Translations under genes and position numbers: made by a program
NCBI RefSeq assembly: GCF_021215455.1
Contig: NZ_JAJPWV010000003.1
Span: 496,001 to 560,000 of the forward strand
DNA from: Mucilaginibacter roseus
GTDB lineage: Bacteria > Bacteroidota > Bacteroidia > Sphingobacteriales > Sphingobacteriaceae
DNA: 64,000 bases
Reading direction: 5' to 3'
Notes under the pieces: model-generated
Databases searched by the model: none
What the model saw: only the letters and a program-made list of their open reading frames with translations
What the model was told of the DNA's origin: nothing
Shown here: positions 28,105 through 40,305 of the stretch, one piece after another
Layout of the letters: the number at the start of each line of letters is the position of its first letter
Position numbering within the stretch: position 1 is the first letter of the stretch

Positions 28105-28464
28105 TTATGCTATGGGGTCAATATTCAGCGGATTGGGATAATTGTCACTCTGGTCTTCTTCGGTGTTATCTAAGCATTGAAAGTCTTTCTCAACCAGTAA
28201 ATAAAAATCAGGTGTGCGATTTTCAAAGCCAACTTTGTCGGTATTTATCCATTCGGCACGCATAGAAGCGGGCATGAACAGGGTTATTTTGTTGTTTTCA
28301 AAACTGGCCCAAAGTTCATCTGCTGCTGATATTTTTAAAGCATAAACAAGCCGGGTAGCACCAAAATCAGTTACATTTTCTAAATAACCCTCACAGCCAA
28401 AGCGTTCTACCTCTGACCGAGTGAGGCGGTAACGCAACGAGTTTCCTTTTATGCGTATTTTCAT
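28105..28464 (-). CDS. Conserved small protein of the nitrate locus, 119 aa
   Basis: A soluble 119-residue protein that begins MKIRIKGNSLRYRLTRSEVERFGCEGYLENVTDFG, followed by a strand-rich core (LVYALKISAADELWASFENNKITLFMPASMRAEW in pieces) and an acidic C-terminal tail. No catalytic motif is visible. I recall similar short proteins next to Bacteroidetes nitrate-assimilation genes but cannot name the family with certainty. Its ATG overlaps the cobA stop codon (4 bp, ATGA-type), so the two are co-translated, divergent from the nir-nas operon. A role in the siroheme or nitrite reductase branch is inferred from position. Confidence 0.75.
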   Translation of the reverse strand: MKIRIKGNSLRYRLTRSEVERFGCEGYLENVTDFGATRLVYALKISAADELWASFENNKITLFMPASMRAEWINTDKVGFENRTPDFYLLVEKDFQCLDNTEEDQSDNYPNPLNIDPIA

Positions 28465-29216
28465 AACAATGAATTTAGATTGACCACCTGGCCTATGATA
28501 ATTATAGAAGGGTAGGTTAGTTGATGTTCTTCGGCAAGGGCGGGCATATCTTTAATTAGCCCTTTAATTGATTTTTGTTGCGGAAGCGAGGCGTGCTGAA
28601 TAATAGCTGCCGGGGTATCGCCCTGGTTTTCTTTAATGTAAGTGTCGGTAATAACAGGCAGCTGTTTCATACCCATATATATAGCTACAGTGGCATTGCT
28701 CTGCATAGCCAGCCGTAAATCGGCCGATAGGGTGCCATCTTTTTTAGTGCCGGTTACCATCCATACCCCTTCACTTATAGCCCGGTGGGTTAACGGAATA
28801 TCTTCAAATCCAGAAGCCTGCATACTGGTAATACCCGGCACAAAAGTTGTTCGAATGCCTTGGCTGCGTGCATACATAATTTCTTCATAACCTCTGCCGA
28901 ATATGAATGGGTCTCCACCTTTTAATCGTATTACCGAACCATATTCAAAAGCATATTTTTTTATCAGTCCGTTTATTTCGTCCTGCGAGGCATAGCGTTC
29001 GTACGGGCGTTTACCTACGTACACCTTTAAGCAAGATGGTTTTGTTAATTCCAGCAATTGTTGGTTGGCAAGGTTGTCATATAATATCACATCGGCCTGT
29101 TGCAATAGCCTATAACCCTTTAAAGTGATCAATTCCGGGTCGCCCGGACCTGCTCCTAATACAATAAGTTCAGGCTCAGCATAATTTTTACTAAAATTTC
29201 CACTATTTGAAATCAT
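28461..29216 (-). CDS. cobA: Uroporphyrinogen-III C-methyltransferase (SUMT)
   Basis: The enzyme adds two methyl groups from S-adenosylmethionine to uroporphyrinogen III to make precorrin-2, the branch point to siroheme. At 251 residues it is a stand-alone SUMT, without the CysG dehydrogenase/ferrochelatase domain. Motifs seen are LIVLGAGPGDPELITLKGYRLLQQADVILYDNL in pieces, VRLKGGDPFIFGRGYEE, and VPGITSMQASGFEDIPLTHR, all standard for the tetrapyrrole methylase fold. The nitrite reductase NirB encoded divergently needs siroheme, which explains its place. The final dehydrogenase and ferrochelatase steps are not encoded in this window. Confidence 0.95.
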   Translation of the reverse strand: MISNSGNFSKNYAEPELIVLGAGPGDPELITLKGYRLLQQADVILYDNLANQQLLELTKPSCLKVYVGKRPYERYASQDEINGLIKKYAFEYGSVIRLKGGDPFIFGRGYEEIMYARSQGIRTTFVPGITSMQASGFEDIPLTHRAISEGVWMVTGTKKDGTLSADLRLAMQSNATVAIYMGMKQLPVITDTYIKENQGDTPAAIIQHASLPQQKSIKGLIKDMPALAEEHQLTYPSIIIIGQVVNLNSLL

Positions 29217-29485: not shown

Positions 29486-31972
29486 ATGAAACCCACCATT
29501 GTAGTGGTAGGAAATGGCATGGTAGGATATAAGTTTTGCGAAAAGCTTATATCTAAGTCATCGGCTTACCAAATTATCGTTTTTGGCGAAGAAACACGCC
29601 GCGCTTACGACCGCGTACATTTGAGCGAGTATTTTGCAGGTAAAACCGCCGAAGACCTATCTATGTCTTCAGCATCGTGGTATGCAGATAACGGCATACA
29701 ATTGCACTTGGGCGATGCCGTTCAGGAAATCAACCTTTATCAAAAAAAGATTCATACCCAAAGCGGGCTTGTAGTAAAATACGATTACCTCGTGCTGGCC
29801 ACAGGTTCAGGAGCGTTTGTGCCCGATTTGCCGGGTGTTGAAAAGCAAGGCGTATATGTATACCGCAGCATTGATGATCTTGACCATATTAAAGCCTATG
29901 CAACCAATGCCAAAAGCGGTGTAGTAATGGGCGGTGGCTTGCTGGGTTTGGAGGCTGCAAAAGCCCTTATTGATTTAGGCATCCAACAAACCCATGTAAT
30001 TGAGTTTGCACCACGCTTAATGCCCCGTCAAATTGATGCGGCGGGCAGCGCTATGCTACAGTCCAAATTAGGGCAACTGGGGTTGCAAATTCATCTCAAT
30101 AAAAGCACCTCAACAATTGAGGGCAATGGCCACATAACCGGTTTGCGATTTAATGATGACAGTGTACTGGAAACCGATATGCTGGTTATATCGGCTGGTA
30201 TACGCCCACGCGATGAGTTGGCCCGTTTGGCTGGTTTAGAAGTAGGCACCCGTGGCGGCATTGTGGTAAACTCTCAAATGCAAACCAGTCACCCCGATGT
30301 TTTTGCTATTGGTGAATGTGCGCTGTATGAGGGCATGATATACGGCTTGGTTGCTCCCGGTTATGAAATGGCCGAGGTGGTGGCAGCCCAACTGGCCGGC
30401 ACCAACAAGCTATTTAAAGGCTTTGACATGAGCACCAAGCTCAAACTAATAGGTGTAGATGTAGCCAGCTTTGGCGATGCTTTCATTAGCGAACCTGCCT
30501 GCCGCACCATTGTTTTTGAAGATACGCACAAAGGAATTTACAAACGCATCAATATAAGTAACGATGGTAAGTTATTGCTGGGCGGAATCCTTATTGGTGA
30601 AGCCGAAGCTTACAACATGTTGCTGCAAACGGTAAATAACAAAGTTGCCCTGCCCCCTAACCCTGAAGATATGATACTGGGCGCCCGTGGCGGCGAGCAA
30701 GCCGAAGGCGCAGGCGTAATGAGTTTGCCCGATGATGCGCTGATATGCTCATGCGAGGCGGTAAGCAAAGGCGATATATGCTGCTCGGTAAATGATGGCG
30801 CGCTCAGCCTCGATGCCGTGAAGAAATGTACCAAAGCCGGAACCGGTTGCGGCGGCTGCGTGCCGATGGTAAAAGACCTTATTGCAGGTACTATGAAAGC
30901 CAACGGGCAGTATGTTAAAAACGTGATTTGCGAGCATTTTGAATATTCAAGGCAAGAGTTGTTCGACCTCGTAAAAATTAACAAACTCAAAAATTACGAC
31001 CTTATTCTCGATCATTATGGCAAAGGCGATGGCTGCGAGGTGTGCAAGCCGCTTGTGGCCAGTATACTGTCGAGCCTGTGGAACGATTTGGTAGTTAAGC
31101 AAGATACTATTCAGGATAGTAACGACCGCTATTTGGCCAACATACAAAAGGGCGGCACCTACTCGGTAGTGCCGCGCATACCTGGCGGTGAAATTACGCC
31201 CGAAAAGCTGATCGTTATTGGGCAAGTAGCTCAAAAATATGGCCTGTACACCAAAATTACCGGCGGACAGCGTATAGACCTCTTCGGCGCTCACGTAAGC
31301 GATCTGCCTAATATTTGGGAGGAGTTAGTGAATGCCGGTTTCGAGAGCGGCCATGCTTATGGTAAATCGTTGCGTACGGTTAAAAGTTGTGTGGGCAGCA
31401 CCTGGTGCAGGTTTGGTTTACATGATAGCGTTTCATTCGCCATCGAGATTGAGGAGCGTTATAAAGGTGTTCGTTCTCCGCATAAATTAAAGGGAGGTGT
31501 AAGCGGCTGTATACGCGAGTGCGCCGAAGCGCAGGGCAAAGATTTTGGCATTATTGCCACCGAAAAAGGCTGGAATTTATATGTGTGCGGCAACGGCGGC
31601 TCCAAGCCACAGCATGCTCAGCTCCTCGCGGCGGATATTGACAGCAAAACCCTCATCCAATACCTTGACCGTTTCTTGATGTTTTACATTAAAACAGCCG
31701 ACCCGCTTACCCGTACCGCAACCTGGCTTAATAAGCTCGAAGGCGGCATGAGCTACGTAAAAAACGTGGTAGTGAACGATAGCCTGGGCATAGCTACCCA
31801 GTTGGAGGAAGAAATGCAGCTACTGGTTGATAGCTTTCATTGCGAATGGAAAGAGGTGGTAAACAATCCGCAATTGCGCAAACGCTTTACCCACTTTGTA
31901 AACGCTCCAACTGAAAAAGACCCGAGCGTGAAATTTGAGAGTATGCGCCAGCAGGTAAAAGCTATCTGGTAA
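29486..31972 (+). CDS. nirB: Nitrite reductase (NADH), large subunit
   Basis: A cytoplasmic six-electron reductase, nitrite to ammonium, of 828 residues. An N-terminal FAD/NAD module (VVVGNGMVGYKFCEKL at about 5-20, GVVMGGGLLGLEAAKAL at about 150) is followed by a BFD-like [2Fe-2S] domain (ICSCEAVSKGDI...CTKAGTGCGGCVP, about 418-465) and a second, partial BFD-like unit (GCEVCKPLV). The siroheme/[4Fe-4S] module carries Cys635, Cys641, Cys675 and Cys679, i.e. the C-x5-C...C-x3-C set. All catalytic elements are present. It is the first gene of an operon with nirD, porin, transporter, nitrate reductase and a rubredoxin-like gene. Confidence 0.96.
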   Translation: MKPTIVVVGNGMVGYKFCEKLISKSSAYQIIVFGEETRRAYDRVHLSEYFAGKTAEDLSMSSASWYADNGIQLHLGDAVQEINLYQKKIHTQSGLVVKYDYLVLATGSGAFVPDLPGVEKQGVYVYRSIDDLDHIKAYATNAKSGVVMGGGLLGLEAAKALIDLGIQQTHVIEFAPRLMPRQIDAAGSAMLQSKLGQLGLQIHLNKSTSTIEGNGHITGLRFNDDSVLETDMLVISAGIRPRDELARLAGLEVGTRGGIVVNSQMQTSHPDVFAIGECALYEGMIYGLVAPGYEMAEVVAAQLAGTNKLFKGFDMSTKLKLIGVDVASFGDAFISEPACRTIVFEDTHKGIYKRINISNDGKLLLGGILIGEAEAYNMLLQTVNNKVALPPNPEDMILGARGGEQAEGAGVMSLPDDALICSCEAVSKGDICCSVNDGALSLDAVKKCTKAGTGCGGCVPMVKDLIAGTMKANGQYVKNVICEHFEYSRQELFDLVKINKLKNYDLILDHYGKGDGCEVCKPLVASILSSLWNDLVVKQDTIQDSNDRYLANIQKGGTYSVVPRIPGGEITPEKLIVIGQVAQKYGLYTKITGGQRIDLFGAHVSDLPNIWEELVNAGFESGHAYGKSLRTVKSCVGSTWCRFGLHDSVSFAIEIEERYKGVRSPHKLKGGVSGCIRECAEAQGKDFGIIATEKGWNLYVCGNGGSKPQHAQLLAADIDSKTLIQYLDRFLMFYIKTADPLTRTATWLNKLEGGMSYVKNVVVNDSLGIATQLEEEMQLLVDSFHCEWKEVVNNPQLRKRFTHFVNAPTEKDPSVKFESMRQQVKAIW

Positions 31973-32003: not shown

Positions 32004-32354
32004 ATGGAAGTATTAGCAGATATTGAGTGGGTACTGGCCTGTTACGCCGATGATGTACCCGAAAATGGCGGCGCCTGTATGAAGCACGGTGATGAGCAGA
32101 TAGCAATCTATAACTTCAGTCGCCGCGGAGAGTGGTATGCCACCCAAAACCTTTGTCCGCACAAACAGCAAATGGCTTTGTCGCGCGGGATGATAGGGAG
32201 CGCAGGCGAAGGCTGTGAGCCCAAAGTGGCTTGCCCTTTCCACAAAAAAACGTTCTCATTAATATCGGGCGATTGCCTTTCGGGCGATGATTATCAGATA
32301 AAAACTTACCCCGTAAAGGTAATGGAGGGGAAGGTGTATGTGGGAATTGCTTAG
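32004..32354 (+). CDS. nirD: Nitrite reductase (NADH), small subunit, Rieske-type
   Basis: A 116-residue Rieske-fold subunit of the assimilatory nitrite reductase. NLCPHKQQM and ACPFHKKTFSL supply both Cys-x-His and Cys-x-x-His ligand pairs, so a [2Fe-2S] cluster should be bound, as in Bacillus NasE and unlike E. coli NirD, which lacks the ligands. It is 31 bp downstream of nirB. The GC-rich hairpin after its stop codon separates it from the porin gene. Confidence 0.92.
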   Translation: MEVLADIEWVLACYADDVPENGGACMKHGDEQIAIYNFSRRGEWYATQNLCPHKQQMALSRGMIGSAGEGCEPKVACPFHKKTFSLISGDCLSGDDYQIKTYPVKVMEGKVYVGIA

Positions 32355-32481: not shown

Positions 32482-34020
32482 ATGTACAAAAATGTATCTA
32501 AACAATACAGGATTGTTCTCATTGGGTTAGGCCTTGGATTATGCGCTCAGCAGGGTAATGCACAAATTACCTTTACCGGGCAATTAAGGCCAAGGGCAGA
32601 ATTGCGCGACGGATTTGGAACTTTAAAACCCAAAAACAATAAAGCTGCAGCCTTCATTTCGCAACGAATGAGGCTTATTTTCAATTACAGATCGAATCGA
32701 TTAATTTTTCAAACCACGTTGCAGGATGTGCGGGTTTGGGGGCAGGATGCATCAACCATTAGCGTAAACGACGGTAACCGCCTTAGTGTGCACGAAGCCT
32801 GGGCCGAGTTGGTGTTAGCCAATAAAAACGATACATCCTTTAAATACTCGCCCGTAGATTATTTATCTTTAAAAGCAGGCCGGCAAGAGTTGGTTTATGA
32901 TGATGAGCGCCTCTTGGGCAACCTCGACTGGCTGCAACAAGGCCGCAGGCACGATGCCCTGGTGCTTAAAGGTTTCAACAAAGGCTGGCAATTTGATTTA
33001 GGCGCGGCATTTAACCAAAACACTGATGCCATTAATTACAATGGCACCCTCTATACCCCGGCAAATGTACCAGCAACGGTAAAGGATAGTAATGGTAATT
33101 TAGTAAACACTCCTTCAGGAATGATTCCATTGGTGGGGAGCACAGGTAACAGCAACAAAAACGGCAGCGCGGTACTGTTAAGCCCGGCAGGCACCAATGG
33201 CGCTACGCAAAATTATAAAGCATTACAATATCTTTATATATCTAAAAAGGTTAATAAAACTAAAATATCGGGTCTGTTTTTAACCGATCAGTTTAGTAAG
33301 TATGCCATCGATTCGGTAAAGAACACTGCCGGTACCGATGTAGGTTATGTTTATGGTTACCGTTACAACCAACCAGGTGTAAACCTAAGGTACACCACAG
33401 GACTATTCATCAATCCGATATTGGGGAGTAAAAACCGATGGGCATTAACCGGTGGCTATTACTATCAGGGCGGCCGCAGCCGCGATGGTTTAAAGCAAAG
33501 CGCCTGGATGCTAAACCTTTCAGCAGCGTACAACCCAGGCAAATGGAGTTACACGGCAGGGTGGGATTATCTTTCGGGTAACGATGCCTTTTCGTCGTCA
33601 ACTACCAATCACCGGTTCGACCCACTGTATGGTACACCGCATAAGTTTTGGGGGTTGATGGATTACTTCTATGCACCAACCGGTTCGCCAACGGGCGGGC
33701 TGAATAACCCGTATGCCAAAATAAAATATACATCGGCCAATAAACGGCTAAGCGCCGAGCTGGCTAATCACTACTTTCTGCTCGCGGCCGACCAAAAGGA
33801 CATTACAGGTGCCGCTGTTGACCGGTATTTGGGTGCCGAGTTTGATATTACCACGGCTTACAGGCTCAATAAGTTTGCGCTGGCCAGCCTGGGCGTATCG
33901 TACATGGCCGCAACACAAAGCATGGAATACGCCAAAAACGTAACGCCCGGCACATCGGCTTTACACCCAGTGTGGGCATACGTGCAATTGAACATCACCC
34001 CCGAATTTTTAGTTAAGTAA
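32482..34020 (+). CDS. Outer-membrane porin of the alginate-export family, probable nitrate channel
   Basis: The product has 512 residues. A signal peptide (IVLIGLGLGLCAQQGNAQ) is followed by a beta-barrel of the alginate_exp type: FTGQLRPRAELRDGF, FISQRMRLIFNYRS, LSLKAGRQELVYDDERLLGNLDW in pieces, then HDALVLKGFNKGWQFDLG. The family name comes from AlgE, but members in nitrate clusters of Bacteroidetes are taken to be passive anion channels. Its position between nirD and the NarK-type transporter supports nitrate/nitrite entry across the outer membrane. A structured leader shared with nirB precedes it. Confidence 0.82.
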   Translation: MYKNVSKQYRIVLIGLGLGLCAQQGNAQITFTGQLRPRAELRDGFGTLKPKNNKAAAFISQRMRLIFNYRSNRLIFQTTLQDVRVWGQDASTISVNDGNRLSVHEAWAELVLANKNDTSFKYSPVDYLSLKAGRQELVYDDERLLGNLDWLQQGRRHDALVLKGFNKGWQFDLGAAFNQNTDAINYNGTLYTPANVPATVKDSNGNLVNTPSGMIPLVGSTGNSNKNGSAVLLSPAGTNGATQNYKALQYLYISKKVNKTKISGLFLTDQFSKYAIDSVKNTAGTDVGYVYGYRYNQPGVNLRYTTGLFINPILGSKNRWALTGGYYYQGGRSRDGLKQSAWMLNLSAAYNPGKWSYTAGWDYLSGNDAFSSSTTNHRFDPLYGTPHKFWGLMDYFYAPTGSPTGGLNNPYAKIKYTSANKRLSAELANHYFLLAADQKDITGAAVDRYLGAEFDITTAYRLNKFALASLGVSYMAATQSMEYAKNVTPGTSALHPVWAYVQLNITPEFLVK

Positions 34021-34044: not shown

Positions 34045-35331
34045 ATGGAAAATCAACTCGCCAAACTCAATATATTTACGGTTAAGGGCGTGCAAATGCG
34101 CACCTTCCATATCACATGGTTAATGTTCTTTGTTTGCTTTTTCGGCTGGTTCGGGTTGGCGCCGCTTATGCCAACCATTCGTACCGAACTGGCTTTAACC
34201 AAAGCTCAAATCGGCAATATCATGATCGGGTCAGTTGGTTCAACTATACTTGCCCGCTTAATTATAGGCCGCCTGTGCGATAGCTGGGGGCCGCGCAAAA
34301 CTGCTGTGAGGCTGCTGTTGGCAGGTTCTCTGCCAGTATTTTTAGTGGGGCTGGCTAATGACTATACCACGTTTTTGTTATTTCGTATGGCTATCGGCAT
34401 TATTGGGGCATCATTTGTAATTACCCAGTTTCATACCTCTATGATGTTTGCACCCGGCATAAAAGGTACGGCCAATGCGGTAACCGGCGGCTGGGGCAAC
34501 TTAGGTGGGGGTGTAACCAATATGGTAATGCCGCTCATTTTTGCTGCTATAGTTGGCTTTGGTTATTCGCCTGCGCAAGCCTGGCGGTATGCCATGATAG
34601 TGCCCGGTGTCATGATGCTGTTTATTGCCTGGCTATACTATAAATACACTACCGATACGCCCAATGGCAATTACACTGAAATAGGCCATACCACCAAAAA
34701 TACCAAAACGGATTGGAGCATACTGGCCGACTGGCGCGTGTGGGCGCTAACCATGGCATACGCCATGTGCTTTGGTATGGAAGTAACTTTTGATAACGTA
34801 GCCTCACTGCACTTTGTAGATACCTTTAAATTATCACAAAGCTCGGCCGGTTTTTGGGCAGGCATATTTGGTTTCATGAACATTTTTGCCCGTGCCCTGG
34901 GCGGTTGGGTGTCTGACAAGGTTGGTAAAAAATATGGCATGCGCGGTAAAGGCCTATTGCTCGCCGGTGTATTGCTACTCGAAGGTTTGGGCCTGTTACT
35001 ATTTGCACAGGCGGGCACTCTGATGGCGGCTATTTCGGCCATGTTAACCTTTGCCCTGTTCCTCAAAATGTCTAATGGGGCTACTTATGGTATTGTGCCT
35101 TTTGTTAACCAAAAAAACGTGGGTTTAGTAAGCGGCATTGTTGGTGCCGGTGGCAATTTGGGCGGTATGCTGTTTGGCTTTCTGTTTAAATCGAGCACTA
35201 TTACTTATGGCGAAGCATTTACTTACATAGGATATACGGTGGTAGCGGTGGCCGTAATTGTACTAATAACGCGTTTTAAGCGCGAGCCCGAAGGCGTTGC
35301 ACAACCGGCAGCATCAGTTAGTATTGCTTAA
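34045..35331 (+). CDS. NarK/NasA-type nitrate/nitrite MFS transporter
   Basis: An inner-membrane protein of 428 residues with 12 predicted helices. Family features of nitrate/nitrite porters are clear: the FFGWFGLAPLMPTIRTEL opening with a substrate-binding Arg helix, GRLCDSWGPRKT in the first cytoplasmic loop, and the glycine-rich nitrate signatures GGWGNLGGGVTNMVMP and GIVGAGGNLGGMLFGF. It is 24 bp downstream of the porin and 28 bp upstream of the nitrate reductase. It should bring nitrate in for assimilation; proton symport or nitrite exchange is possible. Confidence 0.93.
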   Translation: MENQLAKLNIFTVKGVQMRTFHITWLMFFVCFFGWFGLAPLMPTIRTELALTKAQIGNIMIGSVGSTILARLIIGRLCDSWGPRKTAVRLLLAGSLPVFLVGLANDYTTFLLFRMAIGIIGASFVITQFHTSMMFAPGIKGTANAVTGGWGNLGGGVTNMVMPLIFAAIVGFGYSPAQAWRYAMIVPGVMMLFIAWLYYKYTTDTPNGNYTEIGHTTKNTKTDWSILADWRVWALTMAYAMCFGMEVTFDNVASLHFVDTFKLSQSSAGFWAGIFGFMNIFARALGGWVSDKVGKKYGMRGKGLLLAGVLLLEGLGLLLFAQAGTLMAAISAMLTFALFLKMSNGATYGIVPFVNQKNVGLVSGIVGAGGNLGGMLFGFLFKSSTITYGEAFTYIGYTVVAVAVIVLITRFKREPEGVAQPAASVSIA

Positions 35332-35359: not shown

Positions 35360-38300
35360 ATGCAAACATCTGGAAAGCATATTCAAGCCTACACCTCAAC
35401 CTGCTGTTACTGCGGTGTAGGGTGCGGTGTTATTGTGAAAAAGGAAAAAAATGGCAGTATTACCGTTGAAGGGAACAAAGATTATCCGGTAAATAAAGGC
35501 ATGCTTTGCAGCAAAGGGTTAAATTTGCACTATACCGCAAACGATAAAACCGACCGCCTGCTGTACCCACAAATGCGCTATAATAAAAGCATGCCTCTGC
35601 AACGCGTAACCTGGGATGCCGCCTTAGAACGCACGGCTGCCGTTTTTAATACCTTCATTGATAAATATGGCCCTGAATCGGTAGCATTCTACGCTTCCGG
35701 ACAGTGCTTAACCGAGGAATATTATGTGGTGAACAAGCTCATTAAAGGATTTATTGGCAGTAACAACATCGATACCAATTCGCGCTTATGTATGAGCAGC
35801 GCCGTAGCGGCCTATAAACTCGCTTTGGGCGAAGACACCGTTCCGGTTTGTTATGATGATATAGAACTGGCCGACTGCTTTTTGGTGACAGGTGCCAACC
35901 CGGCCTGGTGCCACCCTATTTTATGGCGCAGGGTGGAGGCCCATAAAGCAGCTAATCCACACGTAAAAATTATAGTGGTTGATCCGCGCGCTACCGACAC
36001 CTGCAGCGTGGCCGACCTGCATCTGCAAATTAATCCTGGAACAGATATTGTCCTTAACCATGCCATCGGTCGCTTATTGATTGAGAACGGTGATATCGAC
36101 ATCGATTTCATTCGCAACCATGCCGAAGGCTTTGCCGCCTATAGCGCACTGGTTTTTAAGCGAAGCCTTGCCGAAGCCGCTCAAATTTGCGGAGTAAGCG
36201 AGTTTGATATACAGCTGGCCGCTAACTATATTGCTGAGGCCAAAGGCTTTATAACCATGTGGACCATGGGGCTTAATCAAAGCTCCGTTGGCGTAAACAA
36301 GAATTTGAGCCTTATAAACCTCAACCTTATTACCGGGCATATCGGCAAACCGGGGTCGGGGCCATTTTCATTAACTGGCCAGCCCAATGCCATGGGCGGG
36401 CGCGAGGTAGGAGGCTTATCAAACCTTTTGCCCGCTCACCGCAATCTGAATAATCCTGTGCATCGTGAGGAAGTGCAAAAATTATGGAACAGCAAACCTA
36501 TCAATCCCCTGCCGGGCTTAACCGCTACCGAGATGTTCGAAGCACTGGAGAGTGGCAAGCTGAAAGCCATCTGGATTATGTGTACCAACCCGCTTACAAG
36601 TTTGCCAAATGCACGGCAGGCCGAGCAAGCGCTCAAAAAGGCAAAGTTCGTGGTTGTGCAGGAAATAAGCAATAAGCCCGAAACCATAGCTTATGCTGAC
36701 GTAATACTACCTGCCGCCGCCTGGGCTGAAAAAGAGGGCACCATGACCAATTCTGAACGGCGCATCAGCTACCTGAACAAGGTAACCGAACCACCCTGCG
36801 AAGCCCTGCCCGATGCCGAAATTATTTGTCGCTTTGCACAAAAAATGGGTTACAAGGGTTTTGATTTTAAGGATGCCGCCGCCATTTATGCCGAACATGT
36901 AAAGCTAACGGCAAATACCAATATTGAGGCTACAGGCGTAAGTTATGAAGTATTGAAAGAACAAAAATCGGTACAATGGCCGTTTAATAAACGCAACCGT
37001 AAAGTGGGTACACCACGGTTGTTTACCGATAAAAAGTTCTATACCCCATCAGGTAAAGCTATCATTCATGCTGTACCCGATACCCTGAACAGCGAACTAC
37101 CTGATTCAGATTATCCTTTCATTCTTACTACCGGCCGCATACGCGACCAATGGCACACCATGAGCAAAACCGGTAAGGTAAATAAGCTCAATCAACACAT
37201 CAAAGAGTCATTTGTTGAAGTTAACCCGCACGATGCACTCGCCTTGCAGGTAAACGATGGTGATGTAATGTTGGTAAGATCCCGAAGGGGCGAAGTGCAG
37301 GTAAAAGCCAAAGTGACTTCAACCATAAAGCAGGGTGTACTATTTATACCTATGCACTGGGGTAAACTATTAGGTAACGATTTGCACCGGGTTAATAATT
37401 TAACTAATGATGTACTCGATCCGATATCAAAGGAACCAGATTTTAAATACTGTGCGGTAAGCATTCAAAAGTATGAAAAGCCTTTTCAGCGCATTGTAAT
37501 TATCGGAGCCGGAGCCGGCGCTTACGGATTCATAAAATCGTACCGTGAGTTAAACGCGCGCGACCGCATTACCGTTTTTAGCAAGGAAGACTTTCCGTTT
37601 TATAACCGGGTGATGCTACCCGATTACATAAGCGGCGAGCAGCAATGGGAGCAGCTCATTAAAATGAAAGACGAGGAAGAGCCTCAATACAAAATAAACC
37701 TGTTACGCGGCGTAAGTGTAGAAAAGGTAAACCGGCAAAAAAAGCAGGTAACCGATTCGCGAGGTATTGTTACGCCGTACGATATATTAATAATGGCAAC
37801 CGGCAGTCGAGCGGCTGTTCCGCGTAATGTCCCTGCGTTACCTGGTATTTTCTCCATGCGCAGCCGTACCGATGCCGACAATTTTAAAAGGCATTTGCCA
37901 AAAAACGGGCACGTGGTTATAGTAGGCGGTGGTTTGCTGGGGCTGGAAATGGCGGCATCGCTGCGTGAGATAGGCATAAAAATTACTATCATTCAGCGTA
38001 CCTCCGCCTTTTTAAACCGGCAGTTGGATGCTCTGGGTAGCCAACTGTTGCACGAAGAAATGGTTGATCAGGGCTGCGATATTTATTATAACGATGAGGT
38101 GCAACTGTATTACGGGCGTAACAAGCTTACAGGCGTTGGGCTGGCAAGCGGCCGTAAAATAAACTGCGATGCCATGATTATTGCCATCGGTACATCGCCC
38201 AACCTTGAGCTGGCCCGCGATTGCGGACTGGAATGCAAGCGTGGTGTTGTAGTAAACGAGCGCCTGCAAACCAGCGATCCCGATATTTATGCCATTGGCG

Positions 38301-38872
38301 AAATTGCCGAATTTAACGGCACACTTTATGGCATTACCGCTGCCGCCGAGCAGCAGGCTGCCGTTGTTGCCGCTTACATGAACGGCGACGTAGGCAGCTA
38401 TTACAAGGGTAGCATATTTATGAATATTATTAAAATTCATGGGTTTGACCTGTGCAGTATTGGCCTGCCTGAATGCCCCGACGACCCGGAATATGAAGAA
38501 GTGGTGTTTATTGATAAAGCCAAACGCTATTACAAAAAATGCATCATTCATCAAGACAAGTTGGTGGGCACTATTCTTATTGGCGATAAAAGTGAGTTAC
38601 TGGAGTTTAAAGAACTTATAGCCAATAAAACCGAGCTAAGCGAAAAACGCCTGCAACTGCTACGCAGCGGCGGCAAGGCCAACCCGGTACTGGGTAAACT
38701 GGTGTGCAGCTGTAATAACATCGGCAGCCAAAATATCATCAATAAAATAAACGAGGGCTGCGATAACATGACGGCCTTGTGTTCAGCATCAGGTGCGGGT
38801 ATGGGTTGCGGATCTTGCAGGCCCGAGGTGAAGCGTTTGTTAGAAGAAGAACTTAAAAAGATAACCGCATGA
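35360..38872 (+). CDS. Assimilatory nitrate reductase fused to its FAD/NAD and [2Fe-2S] electron-input module
   Basis: A 1170-residue cytoplasmic enzyme for nitrate to nitrite. Residues 1 to about 700 are a molybdopterin oxidoreductase: an N-terminal [4Fe-4S] set in CCYCGVGCGV...GMLCSKG, TNSRLCMSSAVAAYK, GLNQSSVGVNK and a C-terminal MGD-binding domain (LTTGRIRDQWHTMSKTG). From about 710 a NirB-like pyridine nucleotide-disulfide oxidoreductase follows (IVIIGAGAGAYGF and VVIVGGGLLGLEMA). The C-terminus, from about 1113, is a BFD-like [2Fe-2S] domain (LVCSCNNIG...GMGCGSCRPEV). In Bacillus these are two proteins, NasC and NasB. The fusion should let the enzyme take electrons directly from NAD(P)H. 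Its stop codon overlaps the next start (ATGA). Confidence 0.93.
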   Translation: MQTSGKHIQAYTSTCCYCGVGCGVIVKKEKNGSITVEGNKDYPVNKGMLCSKGLNLHYTANDKTDRLLYPQMRYNKSMPLQRVTWDAALERTAAVFNTFIDKYGPESVAFYASGQCLTEEYYVVNKLIKGFIGSNNIDTNSRLCMSSAVAAYKLALGEDTVPVCYDDIELADCFLVTGANPAWCHPILWRRVEAHKAANPHVKIIVVDPRATDTCSVADLHLQINPGTDIVLNHAIGRLLIENGDIDIDFIRNHAEGFAAYSALVFKRSLAEAAQICGVSEFDIQLAANYIAEAKGFITMWTMGLNQSSVGVNKNLSLINLNLITGHIGKPGSGPFSLTGQPNAMGGREVGGLSNLLPAHRNLNNPVHREEVQKLWNSKPINPLPGLTATEMFEALESGKLKAIWIMCTNPLTSLPNARQAEQALKKAKFVVVQEISNKPETIAYADVILPAAAWAEKEGTMTNSERRISYLNKVTEPPCEALPDAEIICRFAQKMGYKGFDFKDAAAIYAEHVKLTANTNIEATGVSYEVLKEQKSVQWPFNKRNRKVGTPRLFTDKKFYTPSGKAIIHAVPDTLNSELPDSDYPFILTTGRIRDQWHTMSKTGKVNKLNQHIKESFVEVNPHDALALQVNDGDVMLVRSRRGEVQVKAKVTSTIKQGVLFIPMHWGKLLGNDLHRVNNLTNDVLDPISKEPDFKYCAVSIQKYEKPFQRIVIIGAGAGAYGFIKSYRELNARDRITVFSKEDFPFYNRVMLPDYISGEQQWEQLIKMKDEEEPQYKINLLRGVSVEKVNRQKKQVTDSRGIVTPYDILIMATGSRAAVPRNVPALPGIFSMRSRTDADNFKRHLPKNGHVVIVGGGLLGLEMAASLREIGIKITIIQRTSAFLNRQLDALGSQLLHEEMVDQGCDIYYNDEVQLYYGRNKLTGVGLASGRKINCDAMIIAIGTSPNLELARDCGLECKRGVVVNERLQTSDPDIYAIGEIAEFNGTLYGITAAAEQQAAVVAAYMNGDVGSYYKGSIFMNIIKIHGFDLCSIGLPECPDDPEYEEVVFIDKAKRYYKKCIIHQDKLVGTILIGDKSELLEFKELIANKTELSEKRLQLLRSGGKANPVLGKLVCSCNNIGSQNIINKINEGCDNMTALCSASGAGMGCGSCRPEVKRLLEEELKKITA

Positions 38873-40305
38873 GCACGCAGCACGTAGTTAAAATAAACCT
38901 CCCGGGCGGCTATGTATCGGCAGGCGATTTGTATGAAATGCTGGCAGTAGCCGAAGATGCAGGCGCCGTTGATGTGCGTTTTGGCAACCGTCAGCAACTG
39001 TATTTTACAGTTGATAGCGCCATGCTTGAAGACATGGAAACCGATATGCTACGCGCCGGAATTGATTTCGAGTTGGATGCCGAAAATTACCCAAACATCA
39101 TCAGCTCGTATGTGTGCGATAGCATTTTTTCGCAGGAGAGCTGGCTGCGCGAGGGCGTGTACCGCGATATTTTCGACTTATTTAATTACAAGCCGCGGCT
39201 AAAAATCAATGTTGTAGACAGGCATCAAACCTTTGTGTCCTTCTTTAGCGGTAATTTTAACTTCATTAGTTCGGAGGTAAGCAATTACTGGTATTGGTAT
39301 ATCCGCTTTCCTAAAACAAGCAAGTTTTACTGCTGGCCGGCGCTTATTTACTCGGAAGATATACCGCTGGTAAGTCAACAAGCCGAAAAGCTGATATTCG
39401 AAAACAAAAGCTTATTTTATGATAAAGCCCATGCCGATGAGCAGCTGTTTTACATAATGCTATCAAAGCTGCTTGAGGTATCAACCCAAGCCATAACTGA
39501 GCCGCTGCAATTACCAGATTTTTATTTGCCCTATTACGAGGGTTTTAATAAGTATACAAACAAATATTGGCTGGGTATATATCGCCGCAACGAGTTGTTT
39601 TCTATCAGCTTTTTAAAGGATGTTTGCAGCCTGTGTATACAAAACAGGATAGGCCAAATATACACCACGCCCTGGAAATCCATCATCATTAAAAGCATCG
39701 AAACCAACCAACGCGCTGATTGGGGGCTTATGCTTGACAAATACCGCCTCAACATCAAGCATGCCGCAAACGAACTTAACTGGCAAATTGAAGACCTCTG
39801 CGCCGAAGGCCTTGTGTTAAAGCAACAGTTGGTACGCGAGTTCGAGGAAGCCGACCTGCGTACGTACCGCTTGAGCTTTGTGATAAAAACAAGGCCCAAA
39901 ACCGGGCTCATGGGTTCAGTGGTTATTAAAGTTAATCCATTGGGTACTTTTGAATTGTTGCATACGCCTAACTTCAATCCAAACTCAAAGGTTTACATTA
40001 GCTGCAAAAAGAGGGTTACGCGCGGCCGCCTGACCGAAGAATTAGCAGCAATTTGCAACACCTTTTACGAAAACAAATTAAAGAGTGCAACTAAGGTGGA
40101 GGCTGCTGAGGATGATGAAAAAACCGAGGTGTTATCTACTCAAGATATTTTTAGTTGCAAGCATTGTAAAACATTATATGACCCCCGGTATGGAGATGAA
40201 CTAAATGGCATATCTGTTGGGACAAGGTTTGACCAGATAACCAACGCCTACACATGTTCCGTATGCTCGGCTTCAAAATCTGCTTTTGAAAAGGTAGAGG
40301 CCTAA
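38869..40305 (+). CDS. Rubredoxin fused to a cluster-less nitrite/sulfite-reductase-like scaffold
   Basis: The product has 478 residues. The N-terminus (INLPGGYVSAGDLYEMLAVAEDAGAVDVRFGNRQQLYFTV in pieces) matches the ferredoxin-like half domain of sulfite and nitrite reductases, and SYVCDSIFSQESWL corresponds to the siroheme-domain start. A second half-domain repeats at about 210-260. The C-x5-C...C-x3-C set for siroheme/[4Fe-4S] is absent. The C-terminus is a rubredoxin: Cys430-x2-Cys433 and Cys463-x2-Cys466, with the 30-residue spacing normal for rubredoxin. Its ATG overlaps the nitrate reductase stop codon, so it probably passes electrons to, or helps assemble, that enzyme. Function unproven. 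Confidence 0.8.
   Translation: MSTQHVVKINLPGGYVSAGDLYEMLAVAEDAGAVDVRFGNRQQLYFTVDSAMLEDMETDMLRAGIDFELDAENYPNIISSYVCDSIFSQESWLREGVYRDIFDLFNYKPRLKINVVDRHQTFVSFFSGNFNFISSEVSNYWYWYIRFPKTSKFYCWPALIYSEDIPLVSQQAEKLIFENKSLFYDKAHADEQLFYIMLSKLLEVSTQAITEPLQLPDFYLPYYEGFNKYTNKYWLGIYRRNELFSISFLKDVCSLCIQNRIGQIYTTPWKSIIIKSIETNQRADWGLMLDKYRLNIKHAANELNWQIEDLCAEGLVLKQQLVREFEEADLRTYRLSFVIKTRPKTGLMGSVVIKVNPLGTFELLHTPNFNPNSKVYISCKKRVTRGRLTEELAAICNTFYENKLKSATKVEAAEDDEKTEVLSTQDIFSCKHCKTLYDPRYGDELNGISVGTRFDQITNAYTCSVCSASKSAFEKVEA

Follow-up and report, generated by a model that had tools for sequence, protein, structure and literature searches.

The nitrate assimilation genes of the window

The window analyzed in this study is a stretch of 64,000 nucleotides from Mucilaginibacter roseus. 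It contains a co-directional row of genes for NirB, NirD, an outer-membrane protein, NarK, NasA, and, as the last gene of the row, a protein that we call RubSIR. The genes of this locus are listed below.

28461..29216, − strand: tetrapyrrole methylase, probably CobA/SUMT for siroheme, located upstream of NirB and divergent from it
29486..31972, + strand: NirB, large subunit of the siroheme nitrite reductase
32004..32354, + strand: NirD, Rieske small subunit of the nitrite reductase
32482..34020, + strand: outer-membrane protein of the Alginate_exp type, within the nitrate operon
34045..35331, + strand: nitrate/nitrite transporter of the NarK type
35360..38872, + strand: NasA, fused assimilatory nitrate reductase, 1170 aa, whose stop codon overlaps the start codon of RubSIR
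38869..40305, + strand: RubSIR, 478 aa, with a predicted SiR/NirA-fold body and a C-terminal rubredoxin (based on the open reading frame, Pfam, AlphaFold2, and Foldseek)

The open reading frame of RubSIR is intact, with an ATG at 38869 and a stop codon that ends at 40305. The initial annotation had described an overlap between this start codon and the stop codon of the fused nitrate reductase; the coordinates were exact, and the overlap comprises 4 nt (ATGA). NasA carries in one chain a Mo/4Fe-4S catalytic part, a NirB/NorW-like FAD module, and a BFD [2Fe-2S] domain, with the NAD(P)H/FAD module at its end. The closest named relative of the NasA in the window is from Mucilaginibacter (87% identity), and the fusion of NasA to a NirB-like NAD(P)H/FAD/[2Fe-2S] module is the usual form in these Bacteroidota. 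The outer-membrane protein of the Alginate_exp type (32482–34020) is retained in the nitrate operons of many relatives and is perhaps a nitrate porin.

Domains, predicted fold, and conserved sites of RubSIR

The following features were located within RubSIR.

38881..39012, + strand: first NIR_SIR_ferr half domain, residues 5–48, with the presumed siroheme-site motif FGNRQQ and the invariant R41
39541..39741, + strand: second ferredoxin-like half domain, about residues 225–291, from the secondary structure of the model and from conservation
39757..39792, + strand: remade cluster-loop region, KHAANELNWQIE, residues 297–308, without cysteine
40105..40146, + strand: linker of low confidence, about residues 413–426, with pLDDT < 50 at residues 414–423
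40150..40287, + strand: rubredoxin domain, residues 428–473, with Cys430, Cys433, Cys463, and Cys466

Pfam matched a rubredoxin (PF00301, E = 2.5e-12, residues 428–473) and one NIR_SIR_ferr half domain (E = 7e-6, residues 5–48) in RubSIR, and both were matched in 60 of the 60 relatives scanned. There was no Pfam match to PF01077, the NIR_SIR 4Fe-4S domain, in RubSIR. Its second half domain, which contains a CxxC in a helix (residues 253 and 256) and a TPWKS motif at residues 267–271, was also not detected by Pfam, and the repeated two-half architecture is apparent in the AlphaFold2 model, for which 60 relatives were used as input (mean pLDDT, 90.6; pTM, 0.78). When this model was compared with the PDB using Foldseek, the best match was NirA of M. 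tuberculosis (1zj8, E = 2.1e-17), followed by E. coli SiRHP, maize SiR, and the tobacco and spinach nitrite reductases over ~450 columns, and then by rubredoxins. The whole chain aligned with NirA, SiRHP, and plant nitrite reductase at E values of 2e-17 to 1e-11, in agreement with the repeated, reductase-like body proposed in the initial annotation. Judging from the model, RubSIR securely belongs to the sulfite/nitrite-reductase fold class, although the placement of its domains is less certain because the TM-scores were about 0.5 with a large rmsd. Additionally, some RubSIR members show a weak likeness (E about 1e-3) to the precorrin-3B synthase CobG in both half domains, with the TPWK/R-like region among the similar parts. 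We rejected the assignment of RubSIR as CobG, because the score was 17.5 bits against a curated cut-off of 234.8, the cluster cysteines are absent, and the gene lies in a nas operon, not in a cobalamin operon.

No C-x5-C or C-x3-C pair is present in RubSIR. In HHalign, the RubSIR family was colinear with the CysI/NirA profile over 398 columns (E = 1.5e-5), and the cluster cysteines of CysI were aligned to non-cysteine residues or deletions, the second half of this alignment being of low confidence. The separate halves gave no significant score against CysI; the full-length alignment was significant, mainly via the first half domain. However, the loss of the cluster cysteines holds whatever the exact register, because no cysteine pair of the needed spacing is conserved there in the family. 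The cysteines of the [4Fe-4S]/siroheme cluster are conserved in none of the aligned relatives, and the earlier statement that no cluster set remains was thus borne out. Among 87 distinct relatives, the only well-conserved scaffold cysteines were C253 and C256, which lie off the cluster position, and C396 was retained in 75 of the 87. The helical CxxC formed by C253 and C256 (39625–39636) was retained in 108 and 114 of 116 sequences, respectively. RubSIR shares the two-repeat fold of the body and a half domain with a TTRQ-like motif with NirA, CysI, and the plant nitrite reductases, but it differs from them in the absence of the cluster cysteines and of PF01077, in the loss of the presumed substrate Arg, and in the addition of a rubredoxin. 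RubSIR combines a cluster-less SiR-fold body with a rubredoxin tail; lacking the cluster that defines them, it falls outside the siroheme reductases.

We also examined residue conservation around the former siroheme/cluster site. Identity across the relatives drops to about 28–40%. In 116 RubSIR sequences, R41, N76, N114, H298, E302, L303, N304, K318, and T332 were essentially invariant, K112 was found in 113, and W305 and K275 were each found in 114; position 8 keeps a basic residue (K8 or R8), and R41 is the Arg in the RQ motif of the half domain. The segment H298–E308 sits roughly where the first cluster loop would be expected. Two changes are seen in the family: at position 75, P, A, N, or Q stands in place of the Arg of the RNV motif, and the RKFK motif has lost one Lys. 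The roles of these residues in siroheme and substrate contacts are presumed from E. coli SiRHP. The scaffold had been described as degenerate and catalytically dead; this wording is too strong, because the replacement region is near-invariant. The old cluster region appears to have been rebuilt and kept, which argues that the scaffold is not merely dead. With H298, E302, L303, N304, and W305 near-invariant and R41 and K112 of the presumed siroheme/anion site kept, the protein may possess a rebuilt ligand site.

It is conceivable that RubSIR works as an enzyme by means of a rebuilt site and would reduce NO, hydroxylamine, or leaked nitrite. The old pocket would then hold siroheme, haem, or another cofactor, bound for example by the invariant His298 in place of the cluster cysteine, and the rubredoxin would stand in for the lost [4Fe-4S] as the electron feed. 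The near-invariant residues, including R41 and K112, favor such an enzyme, as do the NorV-like layout of a body with a C-terminal rubredoxin, the NorW-like reductase next door in NasA, and the NO-detoxifying haemoglobin encoded in the nas operon of Bradyrhizobium (PMC4724949). Nevertheless, we consider this rather unlikely, given that the RNV Arg is replaced, one Lys of the anion site is deleted, and the axial Cys is gone. The basic residues retained at the anion site (K8 or R8, R41, and K112) could also serve a nitrate/nitrite sensor or allosteric regulator, in which the old pocket would bind nitrite and the tail would report the redox state. This role is improbable, because RubSIR has no DNA- or RNA-binding domain and is strictly tied to an enzyme gene, not to regulators.

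The C-terminal rubredoxin was recognized as complete in the initial annotation, and both the PF00301 match and the conservation of its cysteines in the family agree with this. Cys430, Cys433, Cys463, and Cys466 were invariant in the 87 distinct relatives, except for one truncation at a contig end, and were retained in 113–114 of the 116 sequences when 29 more divergent members were added. In two loci (L099 and L123), the rubredoxins are strongly shortened and the loop between the cysteines has shrunk, yet all four cysteines are retained. A Gly after each CxxC is typical of rubredoxins but does not strictly define them. In the RubSIR family, the first of these (position 434) is replaced by L, F, K, M, and other residues, and the second (position 467) was found in only 20 of 113 sequences; the rubredoxin of NorV likewise lacks these glycines, and it has a low potential. 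By its two CxxC knuckles in a rubredoxin fold, the tail is a rubredoxin, with a predicted bound metal. Furthermore, the flavorubredoxin model NF003954 matched the tail only (residues 402–477), and it matched the tail in 60 of the 60 RubSIR proteins scanned. The flavorubredoxin NorV and its reductase NorW resemble RubSIR and NasA in having a C-terminal rubredoxin on a larger body and a NorW-like FAD module in the partner, and NorW reduces the rubredoxin domain of NorV. In contrast to NorV, RubSIR has no diiron/beta-lactamase or flavodoxin domain and its body has the predicted SiR fold, and the counterpart of NorW is here fused to the nitrate reductase in NasA. Two homologs without a rubredoxin were observed. 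A paralog of 421 aa in Parapedobacter (G208; L158:2459-3724) adjoins a gene for an outer-membrane protein, ~13 kb away from the NasA–RubSIR pair. The other (L102:267-1553), near a contig end, has F in place of W305 and is one stray case, with neither the fused NasA nor NirB detected in its genome (G422).

Distribution of RubSIR and its linkage to NasA

In a survey of presence and absence together with the nitrate reductase, as had been proposed in the initial annotation, RubSIR and the fused NasA were found in the same 112 of the 301 genomes of the order. A contig search for RubSIR gave 65 loci, all from Bacteroidota according to their titles, and NasA lay upstream of RubSIR in all 65, as far as the contigs extend. 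In a sample of the phylum (395 genomes), 33 genomes had the fused NasA, 28 of them with NirB; RubSIR accompanied the two in all 28, and it was absent from the five genomes that have NasA but no NirB. Instead of NirB, these five have a NirA-type reductase beside NasA. In a subset of the order (141 genomes), RubSIR was detected in all 47 genomes with NasA and NirB, but in none of the six with NirB and no fused NasA. Across both samples (about 525 genomes), RubSIR was present in 73/73 genomes that combine NirB with the fused NasA, against 0/11 with one alone, i.e., the six NirB-only genomes and the five with NirA in place of NirB, with the caveat that related genomes in these counts are not independent. 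In the six NirB-only genomes, NirBD is followed by a putative nitrite channel, as judged by inspection of the sequence. In a NasA tree, the five NasA proteins without RubSIR grouped in a single clade, apart from all of the 36 positives (100/100 support), so the apparent dependence of RubSIR on NirBD represents a single contrast, and perhaps one event. In this sister clade of fused NasA (L155:11672-15619, L156, and L153), NirA is followed by a flavodoxin and an FNR-like protein as a separate pair, and the two have a PFTxxQRAWLN motif in common at their N-termini. In G349, one of the five genomes with NirA in place of NirB, the NirA-type reductase lies by NasA together with a flavodoxin and an FNR-like flavoprotein.

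The carriers of RubSIR are soil and water Bacteroidota. A restriction to one genus was ruled out, since RubSIR occurs in many families of Bacteroidota, on plasmids of Cytophagales, and in a family outside the class (f24). In a limited search beyond Bacteroidota, no full-length RubSIR was found in plasmids. The tie of RubSIR to nitrate assimilation is tight and near-exclusive, and it fits a dedicated partner.

RubSIR directly follows NasA on its 3' side, in the same orientation, in 78 of 78 loci; the genes overlap in 32 of these, and they are ≤ 100 nt apart in 61. The correlation of distance matrices was higher between RubSIR and NasA (r = 0.91) than between RubSIR and NarK (r = 0.74). Among the open frames reported in the genome samples, there were no fusions of RubSIR with NasA or NirB. 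Where a gene intervenes between NasA and RubSIR, it is in some cases a NarM-like Nitr_red_assoc gene (PF09655), for example in Pedobacter-type and Thermoflexibacter genomes (L162:5762-6268 and L087:8493-8948). PF09655 was found only in Synechococcus among 14 control genomes, and it is absent from the genome of the window.

The one-to-one tie and the overlap with NasA would also suit a maturation or assembly factor (chaperone) for this NasA clade, or a factor that delivers siroheme to NirB, with the tail as a structural Zn/Fe knuckle. The nitrate-reductase-associated NarM in the same slot in some relatives and the missing Gly after the first CxxC point in the same direction. On the other hand, the sister clade of fused NasA has no RubSIR, and by its score the tail has a genuine rubredoxin fold, so we regard a chaperone as unlikely. 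A role in the maturation of NirBD, including siroheme supply to NirB, is likewise unlikely, because the six NirB-only genomes lack RubSIR.

A possible role of RubSIR in nitrate assimilation

We tentatively favor an explanation in which one clade of fused NasA in Bacteroidota has RubSIR as its obligate partner, which is co-translated with it and serves in redox transfer and docking. The analysis itself covers the domain layout and fold of RubSIR, the loss of its cluster cysteines, the conservation of the rubredoxin site, its place in the operon, and its strict co-occurrence with NasA. This explanation is preferred because RubSIR and NasA occur in the same 112/301 genomes, the 3' position is constant (78/78), the distance matrices agree (r = 0.91), and RubSIR is in 73/73 genomes with NasA and NirB against 0/11 with one alone. 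It is also preferred because NasA has a NorW-like FAD module while the tails match the flavorubredoxin model, and because the four rubredoxin cysteines are kept even where the loop has shrunk (L099 and L123). The relatives of the FAD module are NirB, the NADH:flavorubredoxin reductase NorW, and rubredoxin reductase.

An ancestral protein resembling a siroheme nitrite/sulfite reductase may have lost its [4Fe-4S] ligands but kept the fold. It would have kept part of the residues that face the anion and the tetrapyrrole, and would have become a docking body with a tethered rubredoxin. In the simplest electron path, electrons would pass from NAD(P)H to the FAD of the NorW-like module in NasA and then to the rubredoxin of RubSIR. 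The rubredoxin would pass on single electrons within an assembly of NasA, RubSIR, and NirBD, and would couple the nitrate and nitrite steps, which would limit free nitrite and NO. The rubredoxin may thus offer the electrons a further exit from NasA, which would lead to NirBD, in the manner of NasG, or to a site rebuilt within the SiR body. We infer the direction of electron flow, the formation of a complex, and the coupling to NirBD in this scheme. A precedent is NasG of Paracoccus, which has been proposed to supply both reductases with electrons from the NADH site in the nitrite reductase, so as to prevent a build-up of nitrite (PMC4724949). The Rieske carrier NasG/NirD would have the same role as that proposed for RubSIR, a shared one-electron carrier for nitrate and nitrite reduction. 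However, its fold and metal site are unrelated, RubSIR has no match to the Rieske domains PF00355 and PF13806, and the operon has its own NirD besides.

Four observations count against the preferred explanation. First, NasA needs no extra relay, because the ligands of its own cofactors (FAD, [2Fe-2S], [4Fe-4S], and Mo) are all retained in clades with and without RubSIR. For the same reason, the idea that the rubredoxin replaces a lost relay of NasA was ruled out, the ligands of the [4Fe-4S], the Mo-Cys, and the BFD domain being intact in both. Second, some genomes of the same genera have NirBD but neither the fused NasA nor RubSIR. Third, all NasA proteins without RubSIR belong to a single clade, so that only one evolutionary contrast supports the link to NirBD. 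Fourth, with the Gly after the first CxxC replaced, the rubredoxin may have an unusual potential, and it may hold Zn in place of Fe. The initial annotation had suggested a dedicated electron donor, docking subunit, or nitrite-handover protein. A dedicated partner fits the tight tie to NasA, but the chemistry does not call for an electron donor to the nitrate reductase, because NasA has its own cofactors and the sister clade has no RubSIR. Nitrite handover, or a coupling of NasA to NirBD, would be compatible with the pattern of co-occurrence. In more specific terms, RubSIR would be a coupling subunit between NasA and NirBD, retained only where this clade of fused NasA and NirBD are both present and derived from a nitrite reductase by loss of the cluster and gain of a rubredoxin, or it would itself be a reductase that is fed by its rubredoxin and has a rebuilt metal site free of the cluster; we consider this pair of roles somewhat doubtful.

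Assimilatory nitrate reduction is usually described in terms of NasA/NasC-type, NasB/NirB-type, and NirA-type enzymes. In more than one third of the sampled genomes of the order, there is an apparently obligatory third protein. The NCBI pipeline labels this family "rubredoxin" (e.g., on Hymenobacter and Spirosoma plasmids), under which it has been hidden, and no published description was found in the open-licence literature. RubSIR represents a multielectron reductase fold from which the catalytic cluster has been stripped, while the old site is strongly conserved and a one-electron tail has been added. It is probably a required and undescribed partner in turning nitrate into ammonia. If RubSIR couples nitrate and nitrite reduction, it would bear on how nitrite and NO are avoided during nitrate assimilation.
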